Source of the DNA: a bacterium
GTDB taxonomy: Bacteria; Bacillota; Clostridia; UBA1381
NCBI GenBank assembly: GCA_030536655.1
Contig: JAUNPN010000009.1
Span: 1 to 44,373, forward strand
Direction of reading: 5' to 3'
DNA: 44,373 nt
Part shown: positions 5,282-39,631 of the stretch, in pieces
Layout of the letters: every line of letters begins with the position of its first letter
How positions within the stretch are numbered: the first letter of the stretch is position 1
Position numbers and translations under genes: made by a program
The notes under the pieces: generated by a model
Seen by the model: only the letters and a program-made list of their open reading frames with translations
What the model was told of the DNA's origin: nothing
Databases searched by the model: none

Positions 5282-6043
5282 ATGTTCAGAACAATTTCAG
5301 TAATAGGCGGAGATTTGCGGCAGCTTGCCGCGGCACAGTTTATGAGGAAGGATGGTTTTGATATAATACTTTACGGCTTCGAGGGTACAGATAAGCATGG
5401 AATCAGAGATACAAGCGATGTATCGGGAGCTTTATGCGCAGATGCAGTCATACTTCCTGTACCGGTGAGCTTTGACGGTAAATACGTTAATATGCCGTTT
5501 TCAAAAAATAAGCTGAGTACAGATGAACTTGTTGCCAATCTAAACCCCGCCGCAATGGTGTTCGGCGGACAGATTAAGCCGGAACTTGCAGAAGCATTGG
5601 AGCAAAGAGGAATAAAATACTGTGATTACTTGAAAAGGGAGGAGCTTGCAATAAGAAATGCTGTGCCGACTGCTGAGGGGGCAATTGAGCTTGCAATTTC
5701 AGAAACTCCGATTACACTGCATGGAAGCAGATGTCTTGTGACCGGTTACGGACGAATAGGAAAAATCCTTTCCAAAATGCTCTGCGGATTGGGAGCGCAT
5801 GTGAGTGTTGAAGCGCGTAAATATGCTGATCTGGCAATGATTGAAGGGCATGGCTGTAATGCGCTGTCATTAAAGGAGCTGGGGCATCATGTTAATGAGT
5901 TTGATATTATATTTAATACCGTTCCGGCGCTTATTTTTGATGCAGAGCTATTAAAGAAAATCAGAAGAAATACGCTTATTATTGATTTGGCTTCACGTCC
6001 CGGCGGGGTGGATTTTATTTTGCACCGGTTAATTATACCTTGA
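5282..6043 (+). CDS. dpsA: Dipicolinate synthase subunit A, 5' part (interrupted gene)
   Basis: DpsA (SpoVFA) works with DpsB to convert the dihydrodipicolinate-pathway intermediate to dipicolinic acid in the sporulating mother cell. The N-terminal SpoVFA domain (MFRTISVIGGDLRQLAAAQF) is followed by a Rossmann fold with GYGRIG at residues 155-160. The family sequence is intact up to ...DLASRPGGVDF (codon 245, ending 6016). Eight unrelated codons and a stop follow, because an element has inserted. The missing 41 C-terminal codons are at 10211-10336, in frame with this part when 6002-10195 is removed; the joined protein is 286 aa, close to the 297 aa of B. subtilis SpoVFA. GGAGG lies upstream of the ATG. 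No other disruption is seen, which argues for a functional split gene rather than a decaying one. Confidence 0.93.
   Translation: MFRTISVIGGDLRQLAAAQFMRKDGFDIILYGFEGTDKHGIRDTSDVSGALCADAVILPVPVSFDGKYVNMPFSKNKLSTDELVANLNPAAMVFGGQIKPELAEALEQRGIKYCDYLKREELAIRNAVPTAEGAIELAISETPITLHGSRCLVTGYGRIGKILSKMLCGLGAHVSVEARKYADLAMIEGHGCNALSLKELGHHVNEFDIIFNTVPALIFDAELLKKIRRNTLIIDLASRPGGVDFILHRLIIP
6002..6016 (+). repeat. Left junction (attL-like) direct repeat
   Basis: GGCGGGGTGGATTTT matches GGCGGGGTAGATTTT at 10196-10210 at 14 of 15 positions, in direct orientation. It encodes the end of the family-conserved ...GGVDF segment of DpsA. The single mismatch is the third base of a Val codon, GTG here and GTA on the right, so either product encodes the same residue. 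Confidence 0.85.
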
Positions 6044-7562
6044 AATTAAAGTATATTTTTATCTTCTTACCCTCAAATATTTCTATTTTTTGGATAAGCA
6101 ATGAAAGTATATTTCTGTCAACTTTATCAAACTGAAGAAATTCTTCGAGCAAGTCTTTCGCATTATCGCTGTTATCCTGCGTTTCCTTTATTCCGTCAAG
6201 CTGATTATTTAAAAGGCTGATTTGTTCTGTTATCATTTCTCTTTCATCATTAAACTTTTTGTGTATCGCAATGAAATCATTTTCTGTTATAATGCCTTTT
6301 GTTTTATCAACATAAAGATTTGTAATAATATTTGTTATTTCACTTAAACGTTTTTCCAAGGATTTAATATTGATTAATATTTCATTTTGCTCTGTAAATA
6401 AATTTTGGCTTGCCTTTAGAATTTTTTCTTTATTAAGGTGTTTTTTGGCATGCTCCCGCAGCTGATTTATTACCTCTTGTTCAAGATAATCTTCTCTTAT
6501 TCTATGAGATGTGCATATTTTTAATTTTGCATGCTTTCTCCATGCGGCGCATACGACATAACTCCGGGTATCATCTCTTGAAAATGTCATTCTGCCATGA
6601 CAATCACTGCAGAAAATCATTCCTGAAAGTAAATGGGGCTTTCCCTTTGCGGGGTTATATGTTCTTTTTTTCATTAACTCTTGTACCATATTAAAATCCT
6701 CCTTTGTTATAATCGGTTCGTGGGTGTTCTCGACAACAATCCATTTATCCTTTGGCAGTCTTACTTTTCCTTTGATTTTATAATTGATTTTTCTTGACTT
6801 GTTTTGCGCTAAGTTTCCTATATACGTGGGATTGCTTAATATTACGTGTATTATATTTTCGTTCCATACACCTTTATTAACTCTTTGGGTTGCCGTCAAA
6901 TTTTTGCTTTCTGATGGTGTGGGTATATGTTCAAGTGATAACTGATTTGCTATACCAAGCTTTGCAGCTCCGCTAAGATACATTGAAAATATCCGTTTAA
7001 CTATTACCGCCGTTTCTTCATCAACTATCAAATGCCCTTTATTTGAAGGGTCTTTTTTATATCCATAGGGCGCTGCGGAGCCGATAAAAAGTCCGTTTTC
7101 CTTTTTGGTATTTAACGCGGTACGCACTTTTCTTGAAATGTCTTTTGCGTACATATCATTAAAAACGGCTTTAAATGGCGTCATGTCATTATTTACATTG
7201 CTTTCAAATGTATCTATTCCATCGTTTACAGCTATATACCTTACGTTATGCTGTGGAAAATATCTCTCTAAATAATGACCCGTCATAATATAATCACGTC
7301 CAAGTCTTGATAAGTCTTTGGTTATAACACAATTGATACGGCCTCTTTCAATATCCACTAACAGTCTTTGGAAATCTGGTCTGTCAAAATTTGTGCCGCT
7401 CCAACCATCATCAATATAAATATCCATTAAGTAAAAGCCGTTTTTAATTACATACTGTGTTAAAAAGGCTTTTTGATTTTGAATACTCTCGCTTTCCTTT
7501 GAAGTTCCGTCATCACGGGATAACCGCAAATATATTGCGGTATTAAAATTATAACTATTCAT
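6033..7562 (-). CDS. Large serine recombinase of the dpsA element
   Basis: This 509-aa protein belongs to the large serine recombinase family (TnpX/CcrA/SpoIVCA type). The resolvase domain starts AIYLRLSRDDG with the catalytic serine at residue 15 and continues through the ITKDLSRLGRD motif. A recombinase domain (PYGYKKDP..., NPTYIGNL) follows, then a zinc ribbon (FCSDCHGRM with later CAAW and CTSH) and a coiled-coil C-terminus. The stop codon is 17 bp from the left junction, the usual position for an integrase that acts on its own ends. It is translated from GGGGAAAGGAAC with the ATG overlapping the 41-aa ORF upstream. It is complete, with no frameshift. The proposed job is excision of the element from dpsA during sporulation. 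Confidence 0.93.
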   Translation of the reverse strand: MNSYNFNTAIYLRLSRDDGTSKESESIQNQKAFLTQYVIKNGFYLMDIYIDDGWSGTNFDRPDFQRLLVDIERGRINCVITKDLSRLGRDYIMTGHYLERYFPQHNVRYIAVNDGIDTFESNVNNDMTPFKAVFNDMYAKDISRKVRTALNTKKENGLFIGSAAPYGYKKDPSNKGHLIVDEETAVIVKRIFSMYLSGAAKLGIANQLSLEHIPTPSESKNLTATQRVNKGVWNENIIHVILSNPTYIGNLAQNKSRKINYKIKGKVRLPKDKWIVVENTHEPIITKEDFNMVQELMKKRTYNPAKGKPHLLSGMIFCSDCHGRMTFSRDDTRSYVVCAAWRKHAKLKICTSHRIREDYLEQEVINQLREHAKKHLNKEKILKASQNLFTEQNEILINIKSLEKRLSEITNIITNLYVDKTKGIITENDFIAIHKKFNDEREMITEQISLLNNQLDGIKETQDNSDNAKDLLEEFLQFDKVDRNILSLLIQKIEIFEGKKIKIYFNFKV

Positions 7563-7680
7563 TGCGTTTTGTTCCTTTCCCCGTTTGAGCAGCTGTATTT
7601 TTTATTTGGAGTATAAATAATTGACTGATTACCTCTTGAAAGGTTTTGCTGTTTTCATTATATACGATTTCTACAGACAT
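7555..7680 (-). CDS. Small 41-aa ORF coupled to the recombinase
   Basis: The ORF starts MSVEIVYNENSKTFQEVISQ and ends GKGTKRNE. It has a strong AGAGGGGGAG ribosome binding site 5-6 bases before the ATG, and its last eight bases (ATGAATAG) overlap the recombinase start, so translation is probably coupled. The protein is charged, has no membrane segment and matches no family I can name. Its place beside a serine recombinase makes a recombination directionality factor or regulator plausible, as small accessory proteins control excision by this enzyme class. Confidence 0.65.
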   Translation of the reverse strand: MSVEIVYNENSKTFQEVISQLFILQIKNTAAQTGKGTKRNE

Positions 7681-7730: not shown

Positions 7731-7763
7731 CTGATTATCTGAGTTATTAAAATACGTATCTTA

Positions 7764-7866
7764 GAGCCTATCCGTAATTAAAGAAGAACCTATTGCAAAG
7801 TCGGATTTTTAGTGCGGTATGACGGAAAATCAGCAGGCGGGATGTGCTTAATTTATGGATAGGCTC
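7764..7866. mobile_element. 103-bp MITE-like element
   Basis: The ends GAGCCTATCCGTAATTAA and the complement of TTAATTTATGGATAGGCTC form near-perfect terminal inverted repeats, flanked on both sides by TTA (7761-7763 and 7867-7869) as a probable 3-bp target duplication. There is no coding capacity. The ends resemble those of IS5-group elements that duplicate TNA; the parent transposase is not in the window. Confidence 0.7.
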
Positions 7867-7961
7867 TTATTATATATAGCCTTAATATTATTAATATACA
7901 ATCATTTTTTAGACAATTTTGCTGAAATTCCTAACAATTATTTTACAAATAGAAAAAAACG

Positions 7962-7990
7962 TTGATTTTATTATTAAATTGTTGTACAAT
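7962..7990 (+). promoter_or_regulatory. Sigma-A promoter of glmS
   Basis: TTGATT (7962-7967), a 17-bp spacer and TACAAT (7985-7990). About 50 bases separate it from the glmS start, too few for a glmS ribozyme. A second TATAAT-like stretch follows in the AT-rich leader. The promoter lies inside the element, so glmS has its own vegetative-type promoter. Confidence 0.55.
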
Positions 7991-8048: not shown

Positions 8049-9875
8049 ATGTGCGGAATAGTTGGATATATAGGTAAACGCAGTGTTGCCCCTATTCTTC
8101 TTGAAGGACTTTCTAAGCTTGAATATCGAGGCTACGACAGCGCAGGAATTGCTGTATATAACGGTTCGGAAATTCAGGTTGAAAAAGCAAAGGGACGCCT
8201 TGCGGTTTTATCAGAAAAAACTAACGGGGGACAAAGCGTAAACGGCACTGTCGGTATCGGCCATACAAGATGGGCTACCCACGGCGAGCCTTCTGACGTC
8301 AATGCGCACCCGCATCTTTCTCAGTCGGGGCGTTTTGCCGTTGTACATAATGGAATTATTGAAAATTATATAGCTTTAAAGAAACGCCTTGAATCAAAAG
8401 GCTTTGAATTTATTTCAGAAACAGATACCGAGGTTATCGCTCACCTTTTTGAGTATTACTATAAGGGTGATATTATGGAGGCTGTAACAAAGGTTATCAA
8501 TCGTGTTGAAGGCTCATACGCTTTAGGCGTACTCTGTGTTGATTATCCCGACCAATTTATTGCAGTAAGAAAAGCAAGCCCGTTAATAGTTGGTATTGGT
8601 GAGGATGAAAATTTCATTGCTTCGGATGTGACTGCAATATTAAAGTATACAAGAAACATTTATTACCTTGAGGATGATGAGATAGTTGTTCTCAAGCGTG
8701 ACGGTGTTGAAATCTACAATATGGATCTTGAAGAAGTGCAGAAGGAAGTATTTACGGTAAACTGGGATGTAAGCGCTGCTGAAAAGGGCGGCTACGAGCA
8801 TTTCATGATGAAGGAAATCGAAGAGCAGCCTAAGGCTCTCCGTGATACTATTTCACCGAGAATCAATAACGGTAAGGTTGTTCTTGATGATATTTCACTG
8901 ACAACACAGGATATAAAGAATATCAGAAAAATTTATATCGTTGCCTGCGGAAGCGCATATCATGTAGGTGTTGTCGGAAAATATGTAATTGAAAAAATGT
9001 GCCGTATTCCTGTTGAGGTTCAGGTTGCGTCTGAGTTCCGTTACTGCGACCCTATCGTTGGTTCAAAGGATCTTGTTATTGTAATCAGCCAGTCGGGTGA
9101 AACCGCAGACACTCTTGCGGGTCTTAAAGAAGCAAAGAACCATGGCGCGAGAATTCTTTCGATTGTTAATGTAGTAGGAAGTGCAATTGCAAATGCATCG
9201 GATGATGTTATTTATACATGGGCAGGACCTGAAATTGCAGTTGCAACAACCAAGGCTTATTCTACGCAGCTTGCTGTTATGTATCTTATCGCGTTATACA
9301 TGGCCGATAAGTTAGGCATGGTTACGTCAGGCGAATATGCAAGATATGTTAAGGACATTGAAGCGCTTCCGGATATGGTTGCAAAGATATTGGAAAACAA
9401 AGATGAGCTTCAGTACCTTGCGTCAAAATTCTACAACTGCAAGTCGATTTTCTTTATTGGAAGAAATCTTGACTATGCTGTTTCGCTTGAAGGCTCATTA
9501 AAGCTTAAGGAAATATCTTACATACACTCCGAAGCTTATGCTGCCGGAGAATTAAAGCACGGCACAATTTCACTTATTGAGGAAGGAACGCTTGTTATCG
9601 CTCTTGCTACCGGTTCAGAGCTGTTTGACAAAACTGTTTCAAATGTAAAAGAGGTTAAGGCAAGAGGCGCGGTTGTAATGGGTGTGACAACCGAAAATCA
9701 AGACGACATGGATACCGTTGCGGATTATGTTGTTAAGGTTCCGCAGATTAACGAAACACTTCTGCCGTCGCTTACAGTTATTCCTCTGCAATTATTCGGT
9801 TACTATGTAGCCTCGTTAAAAGGCTGTGATATTGACAAGCCGAGAAATCTCGCTAAGTCAGTTACTGTTGAATAA
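8049..9875 (+). CDS. glmS: Glutamine-fructose-6-phosphate aminotransferase (cargo of the element)
   Basis: GlmS makes glucosamine-6-phosphate from fructose-6-phosphate and glutamine, the first step towards UDP-GlcNAc and peptidoglycan. The 608-aa protein is full length. The N-terminal Ntn glutaminase domain starts MCGIVGYIG with the catalytic Cys2 and has the GHTRWATHG motif. Two SIS isomerase domains follow (ACGSAYHVG, SQSGETADT), and the terminus DKPRNLAKSVTVE is typical. The start has AGGGAGG upstream. It lies entirely inside the dpsA intervening element, with its own promoter and a hairpin downstream. No glmS ribozyme core precedes it. Its codon and base composition look like the host genes rather than like the AT-rich recombinase, which suggests capture from a related chromosome. 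Confidence 0.97.
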   Translation: MCGIVGYIGKRSVAPILLEGLSKLEYRGYDSAGIAVYNGSEIQVEKAKGRLAVLSEKTNGGQSVNGTVGIGHTRWATHGEPSDVNAHPHLSQSGRFAVVHNGIIENYIALKKRLESKGFEFISETDTEVIAHLFEYYYKGDIMEAVTKVINRVEGSYALGVLCVDYPDQFIAVRKASPLIVGIGEDENFIASDVTAILKYTRNIYYLEDDEIVVLKRDGVEIYNMDLEEVQKEVFTVNWDVSAAEKGGYEHFMMKEIEEQPKALRDTISPRINNGKVVLDDISLTTQDIKNIRKIYIVACGSAYHVGVVGKYVIEKMCRIPVEVQVASEFRYCDPIVGSKDLVIVISQSGETADTLAGLKEAKNHGARILSIVNVVGSAIANASDDVIYTWAGPEIAVATTKAYSTQLAVMYLIALYMADKLGMVTSGEYARYVKDIEALPDMVAKILENKDELQYLASKFYNCKSIFFIGRNLDYAVSLEGSLKLKEISYIHSEAYAAGELKHGTISLIEEGTLVIALATGSELFDKTVSNVKEVKARGAVVMGVTTENQDDMDTVADYVVKVPQINETLLPSLTVIPLQLFGYYVASLKGCDIDKPRNLAKSVTVE

Positions 9876-9895: not shown

Positions 9896-9928
9896 CAGCT
9901 GCTGCAAAACTTTGTTTTGCAGCAGCTG
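9896..9928. terminator. Perfect 15-bp palindromic hairpin after glmS
   Basis: CAGCTGCTGCAAAAC pairs perfectly with GTTTTGCAGCAGCTG around TTT. A T run precedes rather than follows the stem, so it is not a textbook intrinsic terminator for glmS. The stem is shared with other hairpins in the window. It would be expected to hinder read-through from dpsA to dpsB when the element is present. Confidence 0.6.
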
Positions 9929-10167: not shown

Positions 10168-10195
10168 ATGTTCTTACTATACCAAAATAAAATCG

Positions 10196-10210
10196 GGCGG
10201 GGTAGATTTT
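10196..10210 (+). repeat. Right junction (attR-like) direct repeat
   Basis: GGCGGGGTAGATTTT is the partner of 6002-6016. It is read in frame as GGVDF, directly followed by the missing C-terminal codons of dpsA. Confidence 0.85.
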
Positions 10211-10336
10211 GAAGCTGCCGCAAAAATGGGAATAAAGGTAATATGGGCTCTTTCACTTCCTGGAAAGATTGCGCCGGTTACATCGGGAGCTATAATTAAA
10301 GATACGATAATAAACGTAATGAGGGAAATGGCATAA
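10196..10336 (+). CDS. dpsA: Dipicolinate synthase subunit A, 3' part (interrupted gene)
   Basis: Read in frame from the repeat, this stretch gives GGVDF then EAAAKMGIKVIWALSLPGKI, continuing through APVTSGAIIKDTIIN to a TAA at 10334-10336. That is the conserved C-terminal end of SpoVFA (the WALSLPGK..AP.T(A/S)G motif). It has no start codon or ribosome binding site of its own and is useful only when joined to the 5' part ending at 6016. Forty-one codons follow the shared repeat. The frame is intact, so selection has apparently preserved it. dpsB follows after 31 bp. Confidence 0.92.
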   Translation, partial: GGVDFEAAAKMGIKVIWALSLPGKIAPVTSGAIIKDTIINVMREMA

Positions 10337-10367
10337 GCGGCATAATAACAGAAAGGTGGTGATGACA

Positions 10368-10946
10368 ATGGATTTGAAGGATAAAAAAATCGGCTTTGCA
10401 ATGTGCGGGTCCTTCTGCACATTTAAAAAGACACTTGCCGCGCTTGAAGAACTGAAAAAAACAGGTGCTGAAATTTTCCCTATTATGAGCGAAACCGCTG
10501 CGTCAACTGACACGCGGTTCGGAAAAGCGGAGGAATTCAGGAAAAAAATAAAGGAAACCACAGGGAATGAAATTATAGAAACTATTAAAGCAGCAGAACC
10601 TATTGGTCCAAAAGCATACTTGGATATGTTGATTGTACTTCCGTGTACGGGAAATACACTTGCTAAGGCAGCGTCCGGAATTGCCGACAGCTCAGTTACG
10701 ATGGCAATTAAGGCGCATCTCAGAAACAATCGTCCCGTGTTGCTCGGTGTGTCAACAAATGATGGATTGGGAGTAGCTGCTGAAAACATCGGCAGACTGC
10801 TGACACGCAAAAATATGTATTTTATTCCGTTTTCTCAGGATGATTACATAAAAAAACCAAACTCACTTGTTGCACATTTTGATAAGCTCGTTCCGGCTGC
10901 CGAAGCGGCTGTCGAGAGCAGACAATTACAGCCGCTTATCGGCTGA
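10368..10946 (+). CDS. dpsB: Dipicolinate synthase subunit B
   Basis: DpsB (SpoVFB) is the flavoprotein-like partner of DpsA in dipicolinate synthesis, needed for spore-core mineralisation and heat resistance. The 192-aa protein starts MDLKDKKIGFAMCGSFCTF, with the typical flavoprotein segment MCGSFCTFKK and the LIVLPCTGNTLAKAA motif. The frame is open from a GTG at 10356, but AAAGGTGG at 10352-10359 is best spaced for the ATG at 10368. It lies 31 bp after the dpsA 3' part and has no obvious promoter of its own, so its sporulation transcript should depend on excision of the upstream element. A hairpin follows. The asd/dapG/dapA genes that follow spoVF in Bacillus are absent here. Confidence 0.93.
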   Translation: MDLKDKKIGFAMCGSFCTFKKTLAALEELKKTGAEIFPIMSETAASTDTRFGKAEEFRKKIKETTGNEIIETIKAAEPIGPKAYLDMLIVLPCTGNTLAKAASGIADSSVTMAIKAHLRNNRPVLLGVSTNDGLGVAAENIGRLLTRKNMYFIPFSQDDYIKKPNSLVAHFDKLVPAAEAAVESRQLQPLIG

Positions 10947-11034: not shown

Positions 11035-12123
11035 TTATGACGGCAAATTTCCGCTGTATATACAGTTTAGCCGTTCCATACTTTTGCGCTTGTGCTCATC
11101 AAGTGAATGGGCATATCGTTTTAACGTAACGGAAACATCGGCATGACCTAATATTTCGCTTAGGGTTTTTATATCAAAACCGTTTTCAAGGGCGCGAACG
11201 GAAAAGGTGTGCCGTATAGTATGAAAATTTGCATATTCTACACCGGCTCTTTTTAATAATCTTTGGTATTGATTCTGCATTGTACGCGGATCCATAATAT
11301 GAGAGTAAAGCTTGATGATATAATCATCCGAATTTCCATATATATTCCTAAGAATTTTACATAAAAATGAAGGCATTGGAATAGTGCGGCGGGAGCTTTC
11401 ACTTTTCGGCGGAAATTCTGTAACAATTGATTTATTGTCTATTGTTATTCTTTGAACTGTGCGCCGCACAGACAAGGTACTGGACACGAAATTAATATCC
11501 TCCCATTTCAATCCGCATATTTCTCCCAGACGCAGACCGGTATACAATCCGATTAATATTCCTATCTCATTTGGATTTTTATCGATATTAACAGCGTTTT
11601 CTATCAGTGTCTGTTCTTCCCTTGTAAAAACTTTAACGTTATTTTTTCGGTTTTTGGGAAGTTCTGCACAACTCCATATATCATCTATGTAGTTCTTATC
11701 ATATGCAATTTTCAGCGCTTGCTTAAGTATAGTAAAAATTCCTTTTAATGTTGAGGGAGCTAAATAGCTTTTCGAATCAATAAATACCTGCAAAAATTCA
11801 GTGCTAAGCTTACAGAGCCTAATGGTATTAAAGAAGGGTTTTATGTGATTCCGGTGATAGCGCATATATACATTATATGTAGAAGGCTTAATTTTATCTT
11901 TTAGAGAAATGATGTAATTTTCAATCCAATCGGATGCGGATATGCTTATCGGTGAAAGCCTTTTATCAATATTAGCTTTTTTCATCCTAAAACGGACTTC
12001 GTTATAGGTATTGGCATATACAGATCGATATTTTGCTTTTCCGTTTAGTGAATACGATTCAATATACCGTCCTTCCCAGCGACCGTCCTTGCGTTTATAT
12101 ATATTTTCTCCTCTTCGCGGCAT
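11035..12123 (-). CDS. Solitary tyrosine recombinase (phage-type integrase)
   Basis: This 362-aa protein has an N-terminal arm-binding-like segment (MPRRGENIYKRKDGRWEGRY), a SAM-like core-binding domain and a C-terminal catalytic domain. Catalytic residues are R198 (GLRLGE), H301 and R304 (HTIRH), H327 (LGHADV) and Y337 (LKRYAHS), so it appears active. It resembles Tn916/ICE integrases of Clostridia. AAAGGAGG precedes the start. No excisionase, replication or transfer gene is nearby, and I found no clear att repeats. It may be the remnant of an integrated element or a free-standing recombinase acting on DNA elsewhere. The base composition is more AT-rich than its neighbours, suggesting transfer. 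Confidence 0.9.
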   Translation of the reverse strand: MPRRGENIYKRKDGRWEGRYIESYSLNGKAKYRSVYANTYNEVRFRMKKANIDKRLSPISISASDWIENYIISLKDKIKPSTYNVYMRYHRNHIKPFFNTIRLCKLSTEFLQVFIDSKSYLAPSTLKGIFTILKQALKIAYDKNYIDDIWSCAELPKNRKNNVKVFTREEQTLIENAVNIDKNPNEIGILIGLYTGLRLGEICGLKWEDINFVSSTLSVRRTVQRITIDNKSIVTEFPPKSESSRRTIPMPSFLCKILRNIYGNSDDYIIKLYSHIMDPRTMQNQYQRLLKRAGVEYANFHTIRHTFSVRALENGFDIKTLSEILGHADVSVTLKRYAHSLDEHKRKSMERLNCIYSGNLPS

Positions 12124-39594: not shown

Positions 39595-39631
39595 AAAGGC
39601 TGCTGCAAAACATTGTTTTGCAGCAGCCTTT
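39595..39631. terminator. Perfect 17-bp palindromic hairpin after sigG
   Basis: AAAGGCTGCTGCAAAAC pairs perfectly with GTTTTGCAGCAGCCTTT around ATT, between convergent sigG and ptsH. It is the best example of the hairpin family of this window. Confidence 0.8.

Follow-up and report, generated by a model that had tools for sequence, protein, structure and literature searches.

A small non-phage element splitting the sporulation gene dpsA carries the only full glmS found in a clostridial genome

Elements that interrupt sporulation genes have been described in sigK, spsM, spoVFB, gerE, and yabG (PMC5025042, PMC4191935, PMC10747680, PMC5595907). Their existence poses a puzzle: if a cell that loses such an element gets its sporulation gene back in one piece, why are elements subject to developmental excision retained? 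The question arises at a locus in a draft genome of the clostridial lineage UBA1381, from which a 44,373-nt stretch of contig JAUNPN010000009.1 (the window) was analyzed. Domain searches and alignment revealed that dpsA, encoding dipicolinate synthase A, is interrupted at residues 245/246 by a 4,194-bp element; relatives with an unsplit dpsA exist. The original prediction, made from the window alone, held that the element carries the housekeeping gene glmS as cargo, which, if it were the only copy, would tie the element to the genome. The features of the locus are collected in Table 1.

Table 1. Positions in the window of the two dpsA parts, the element between them, and the adjoining dpsB
Feature	Position	Strand	Basis or remark
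dpsA 5′ part (dipicolinate synthase A, residues 1-245)	5282-6016	+	DpaA_N Pfam, 1.4e-28; alignment to intact relatives
Left-end core repeat (attL), GGCGGGGTgGATTTT	6002-6016		14/15 match to 10196-10210, spacing 4194 bp; conserved core in same-site elements
Left inverted arm of predicted attP	6011-6023		12/13 complementary to 10182-10194
Large serine recombinase, 509 aa	6033-7562	-	Pfam Resolvase, Recombinase, Zn_ribbon_recom; 47-68% identity to same-dpsA-site recombinases
41-aa ORF overlapping recombinase start	7555-7680	-	Candidate recombination directionality or accessory factor (putative function)
MITE-like inverted repeat between recombinase and glmS	7763-7867		28-nt arms, 79% complementary
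glmS promoter, TTGATT-17 nt-TACAAT, vegetative/sigma-A-type	7962-7990	+	Sequence; layout comparison with relatives
glmS, glucosamine-6-phosphate synthase, sole full copy found	8049-9875	+	TIGR01135; own-genome search
Terminator-like palindrome after glmS, 15-nt perfect arms	9896-9928	+	Dispersed near-identical copies
Remnants with the same termini as the MITE-like repeat, right of glmS	10104-10171		Copies elsewhere 83-85%
Right inverted arm of predicted attP	10182-10194		Complementary to 6011-6023
Right-end core repeat (attR), GGCGGGGTaGATTTT	10196-10210		14/15 match to 6002-6016 (one mismatch)
dpsA 3′ part (residues 246-286)	10211-10336	+	Alignment to relatives; joined reading frame
dpsB, intact	10356-10946	+	TIGR02852, 261.8 bits against a cut-off of 229

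Three properties of elements of the skin, vfbin, and gin type were found here: the coding sequence of a sporulation gene is split, recombination between the 14/15 core repeats would restore its frame, and the element encodes its own site-specific recombinase. The restored frame was computed by a join at the core, with the 5′ part fused to position 10211 onward, and gave an uninterrupted 286-aa DpsA ORF. The recombinase contains the Resolvase, Recombinase, and zinc-ribbon domains of large serine recombinases, and YLRLSRDD, the motif of the N-terminal catalytic serine, is conserved in alignment. Known phages were rejected as its source, given identities of 37% or less. Elsewhere in the host genome, on contig C88 (L289:4573-6112), a related recombinase (53% identity) is broken into two frames. 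The inverted arms, whose 12/13 complementarity was reached in 0 of 20,000 shuffles, adjoin the core on the element side and match the layout predicted for an attP site. ORFs of 30 to 41 aa are located just upstream of the recombinase in most same-site dpsA elements; scanning of 170 recombinase matches identified such an ORF in eight, of which seven are located at dpsA and the eighth is on a contig that lacks dpsA. The product of the 41-aa ORF is proposed as a candidate directionality or accessory factor. No conserved sporulation-type promoter was recognized upstream of the small ORF, and a conserved sigma-E/K-type -10 sequence upstream of the recombinase was considered and rejected, as matches to CATANNNT were scattered. 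Phage structural and replication genes were not found in the 4.2 kb, which hold the recombinase, the 41-aa ORF, and glmS only; the element is non-phage, like gin.

The condition of these parts bears on whether the insertion could be frozen, with dpsA broken in a host without dipicolinate or sporulation and glmS stranded beside a fossil recombinase. Partial loss of a same-site recombinase is seen in genome G051, where one and the same dpsA carries a truncated recombinase (245 site) together with a fragment of a second serine recombinase (262 site; L064:2077-5502). Because of this truncation, some same-site elements appear to be no longer active. In the window, however, the 509-aa recombinase is open, the att arms and core are intact, and both dpsA parts are open in frame; at the level of sequence, these features also speak against an element that never excises, which is one of the cases in which the original prediction would fail. 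In addition, dpsB is intact, Spo0A is encoded in the host genome, and the recombinase clade is under purifying selection, with dN/dS values of 0.06 to 0.19 among same-site recombinases where measurable. We regard a dead element as improbable. Directly 3′ of dpsB, a tyrosine integrase (window 11035-12123) possibly marks a second integrated element.

The predicted placement of glmS entirely inside the element, with a promoter of its own, was borne out. The gene is wholly enclosed by the core repeats and encodes a full-length GlmS (TIGR01135 equivalog, 821 bits against a cut-off of 418), and the -35/17/-10 layout of its promoter is also found upstream of native glmS in two relatives (L013 and L027). 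Neither the window element nor the glmS loci of 19 relatives gave an Rfam match, and a glmS ribozyme was rejected as the regulator. A search of the host genome, a 3.49-Mb draft in 266 contigs that is 98.35% complete (1.65% estimated missing), yielded one full glmS; the other three hits were 34% identical, partial, and confined to amidotransferase-domain stretches. The original prediction had called for this count and depended on the absence of a second full copy, and none was found in the draft.

A genome in 266 contigs, with dispersed repeats on both flanks of glmS, raises the prospect that glmS was misjoined into the dpsA element at those repeats. The MITE-like repeat on the left has ~50 diverged matches in the host genome, but identity reaches only 83% for the best long one, which is also its best full-length other copy, and near-identity on the right is limited to stretches of ~27 to 31 nt. 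These are poor grounds for two misjoins, and glmS is absent from every other contig, so an assembly artifact is very unlikely. Termini like those of the MITE-like repeat recur right of glmS and near window position 200. The near-identical 27- to 31-nt terminator-like palindrome (CAGCTGCTGCAAAAC..) occurs at window 9896-9928 and 39599-39627 and is dispersed over many contigs.

The history of the gene was then approached through relatives and phylogeny, as the original prediction had suggested. In most of the 70 family genomes, glmS is present in one full copy, which as a rule is not close to dpsA. The ancestral order in relatives is mutS2-DUF1961-glmS: a DUF1961 gene is near glmS in 11 of the 20 relatives examined, usually together with mutS2. 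The host genome (G000) keeps DUF1961-mutS2 (~80% and ~75% identical to relatives, respectively), with an efflux operon in the place expected for glmS and no glmS remnant found at this locus. The trees computed for GlmS, DpsB, MutS2, and DUF1961 all placed the host within the family as a lineage of its own; a horizontal origin of glmS received no support from these trees and was rejected. Because GlmS behaves in trees like other host proteins, the promoter layout is like that of relatives, and the ancestral slot is empty, the simplest reading of the sequences is that native glmS was relocated, with its vegetative promoter, into the dpsA element. The dispersed repeats that flank glmS may have mediated the move. 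Another glmS beside a related recombinase (L171) was rejected as cargo of the same type, being 51% identical and at a locus from which dpsA is absent.

The element in the window is one of many insertions in this gene. A dpsA match was obtained in 59 family genomes; the gene is in pieces in ~21 of them, at least 10 of which have the pieces on one contig, and the remainder may include contig breaks. The interruption points are at about residues 132, 245, and 262, and several genomes have two interruptions; dpsA is an insertion hotspot in uncultured gut Clostridia. Examples in the family (L064, L065, L069, L074, L076, L081, L088, and L089) involve different serine recombinase groups. Elements at the same site as that in the window share recombinases of 47 to 68% identity, a common core, and inverted arms. 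Their cargo is heterogeneous and non-phage, including a sugar isomerase-like protein, an aldo-keto reductase with a Phd/ParE-type toxin-antitoxin pair (the latter in the G026 element, L075:3250-3854), LysR, and flavodoxin-like genes, among others. A 638-aa cargo ORF in the G009 element matched no family. In G069 (L072:2003-8125), microcompartment-like and aldehyde dehydrogenase genes directly follow the dpsA 5′ part. Because cargo such as the sugar isomerase-like protein, the aldo-keto reductase, and LysR looks non-essential, essential cargo is not a rule of the dpsA-element family.

A parallel case was identified in another family. Same-site dpsA elements in genomes G070 and G071 encode a glutamine-dependent NAD synthetase (L143:14213-16126 and L152:12969-14879, respectively; NF002730, 835 and 846 bits), along with a SulP transporter, and no NAD synthetase other than this element-borne nadE was found in the two genomes. 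Among the other 18 genomes of this family, whose completeness is not given, 12 have a short NadE (~250 aa) elsewhere and six have none above the cut-off; dpsA is unsplit in 10 of the 18 and is interrupted at a different position in G072. G070 and G071 share both nadE and SulP, with synonymous sites near saturation (dS ~2); therefore, the element and this cargo have long been together in the two genomes. The resident gene was apparently displaced by the nadE of the element.

These comparisons bear on how the glmS cargo is to be understood. By analogy with skin, vfbin, gin, and SP-beta, the recombinase would act late in sporulation to excise the element in the mother cell, probably with the 41-aa ORF product as the directionality factor. 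Excision would restore dpsA and allow dipicolinate to be made, and the forespore would keep the element. A vegetative cell losing the element would likewise regain dpsA, but would lose glmS and be killed or starved of amino sugars unless fed. Because de novo glucosamine-6-phosphate synthesis would depend on the element copy, the mother cell would be the one place where the element could readily be lost: the sole-copy glmS would lock it into the germ line and leave terminal mother-cell excision free. glmS can be dispensable when GlcN or GlcNAc is supplied, and amino-sugar salvage may rescue its loss. On balance, we consider it probable that this is a 4.2-kb non-phage dpsA element with a relocated sole-copy glmS, which is excised in the mother cell and locked in the germ line by the essentiality of its cargo.

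The retention of glmS might instead be a side effect of accidental capture, in which a rearrangement placed the gene in an existing element and the native copy was lost by drift. Such an origin fits a native glmS with dispersed repeat copies on its flanks, through which a rearrangement could take place, and it fits the heterogeneous cargo across the element family. It accounts less readily for nadE, where another essential enzyme present in sole copy occupies the same site in a different family and has been retained since a near-saturated synonymous divergence, or for the toxin-antitoxin pair in a third element, although two or three cases do not suffice for statistics. The host genus is represented here by one genome, and the persistence of the glmS element is undatable. 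Accidental capture as the whole explanation is possible but rather unlikely; the evidence from nadE and from the toxin-antitoxin element, although small in numbers, leans toward selection for such cargo. Capture of glmS may have been accidental even under the germ-line lock, which would follow either way.

The original prediction further held that excision takes away the glmS template of the mother cell, and glmS might then have been placed so that excision shuts off mother-cell amino-sugar synthesis. The anatomy of the locus implies that excision would unlink glmS from the mother-cell chromosome. The excised circle would nevertheless retain glmS and its sigma-A-type promoter, GlmS protein already made persists, and cortex peptidoglycan precursors are still needed around the stage of excision, which also counts against a developmental switch. 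We consider such a switch very unlikely. The original interpretation thus stands in part: the sole-copy cargo, the empty ancestral locus, and the parallel nadE agree with it, and the removal of the mother-cell template does not. The stabilizer reading of the glmS cargo, as far as sequence comparison goes, is supported by the parallel cases.

Known systems resemble the dpsA element in different respects. In the portions of the sources available (PMC10747680, PMC5595907), vfbin is described as splitting spoVFB of Bacillus weihenstephanensis, the gene for dipicolinate synthase B and hence for a subunit of the same enzyme, and as encoding a serine recombinase expressed in sporulation; the dpsA element likewise has a serine recombinase. 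It differs in the subunit gene that it occupies, and vfbin is presented there among prophage-like elements, with essential host cargo unmentioned in those portions. The gin element in gerE of Bacillus cereus ATCC10987 is non-phage, as is the dpsA element, and uses a serine recombinase with a separate excision factor, GirX (PMC5595907). However, gin is 28.6 kb and has three recombinases, whereas the dpsA element has 4.2 kb, one recombinase, and a sole-copy host enzyme. The skin elements in sigK (B. subtilis, C. difficile) and SP-beta in spsM also rely on large serine recombinases, and their precise terminal excision restores the mother-cell gene; unlike the dpsA element, they are prophages or prophage-derived and occupy other target genes, and essential sole-copy cargo is not described for them in the literature found. 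Loss of the element also harms the cell in toxin-antitoxin stabilization of integrative elements and in engineered essential-gene complementation of plasmids (PMC11062541, PMC11875142). The lock of the dpsA element would differ from these in two respects: it would consist of a metabolic gene of the host that has been relocated, and the element that carries this gene would be lost from the mother cell as a step of development. In the open-access literature, no paper was found that describes a dpsA/spoVFA element or reports sole-copy essential cargo for any sporulation gene-intervening element, consistent with the original remark that no sporulation element with such a gene is known to have been described.

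Sole-copy essential cargo would offer a simple answer to the puzzle of persistence. We suggest tentatively that dpsA elements have repeatedly been locked in by a sole-copy essential gene, glmS by relocation and nadE by displacement; this would be a metabolic addiction compatible with mother-cell excision, an analogue of toxin-antitoxin locks that is tied to the division between germ line and soma. Annotation pipelines would likely read dpsA genes interrupted by such elements as broken genes. The nadE case suggests that such elements can permanently take over an essential host function.
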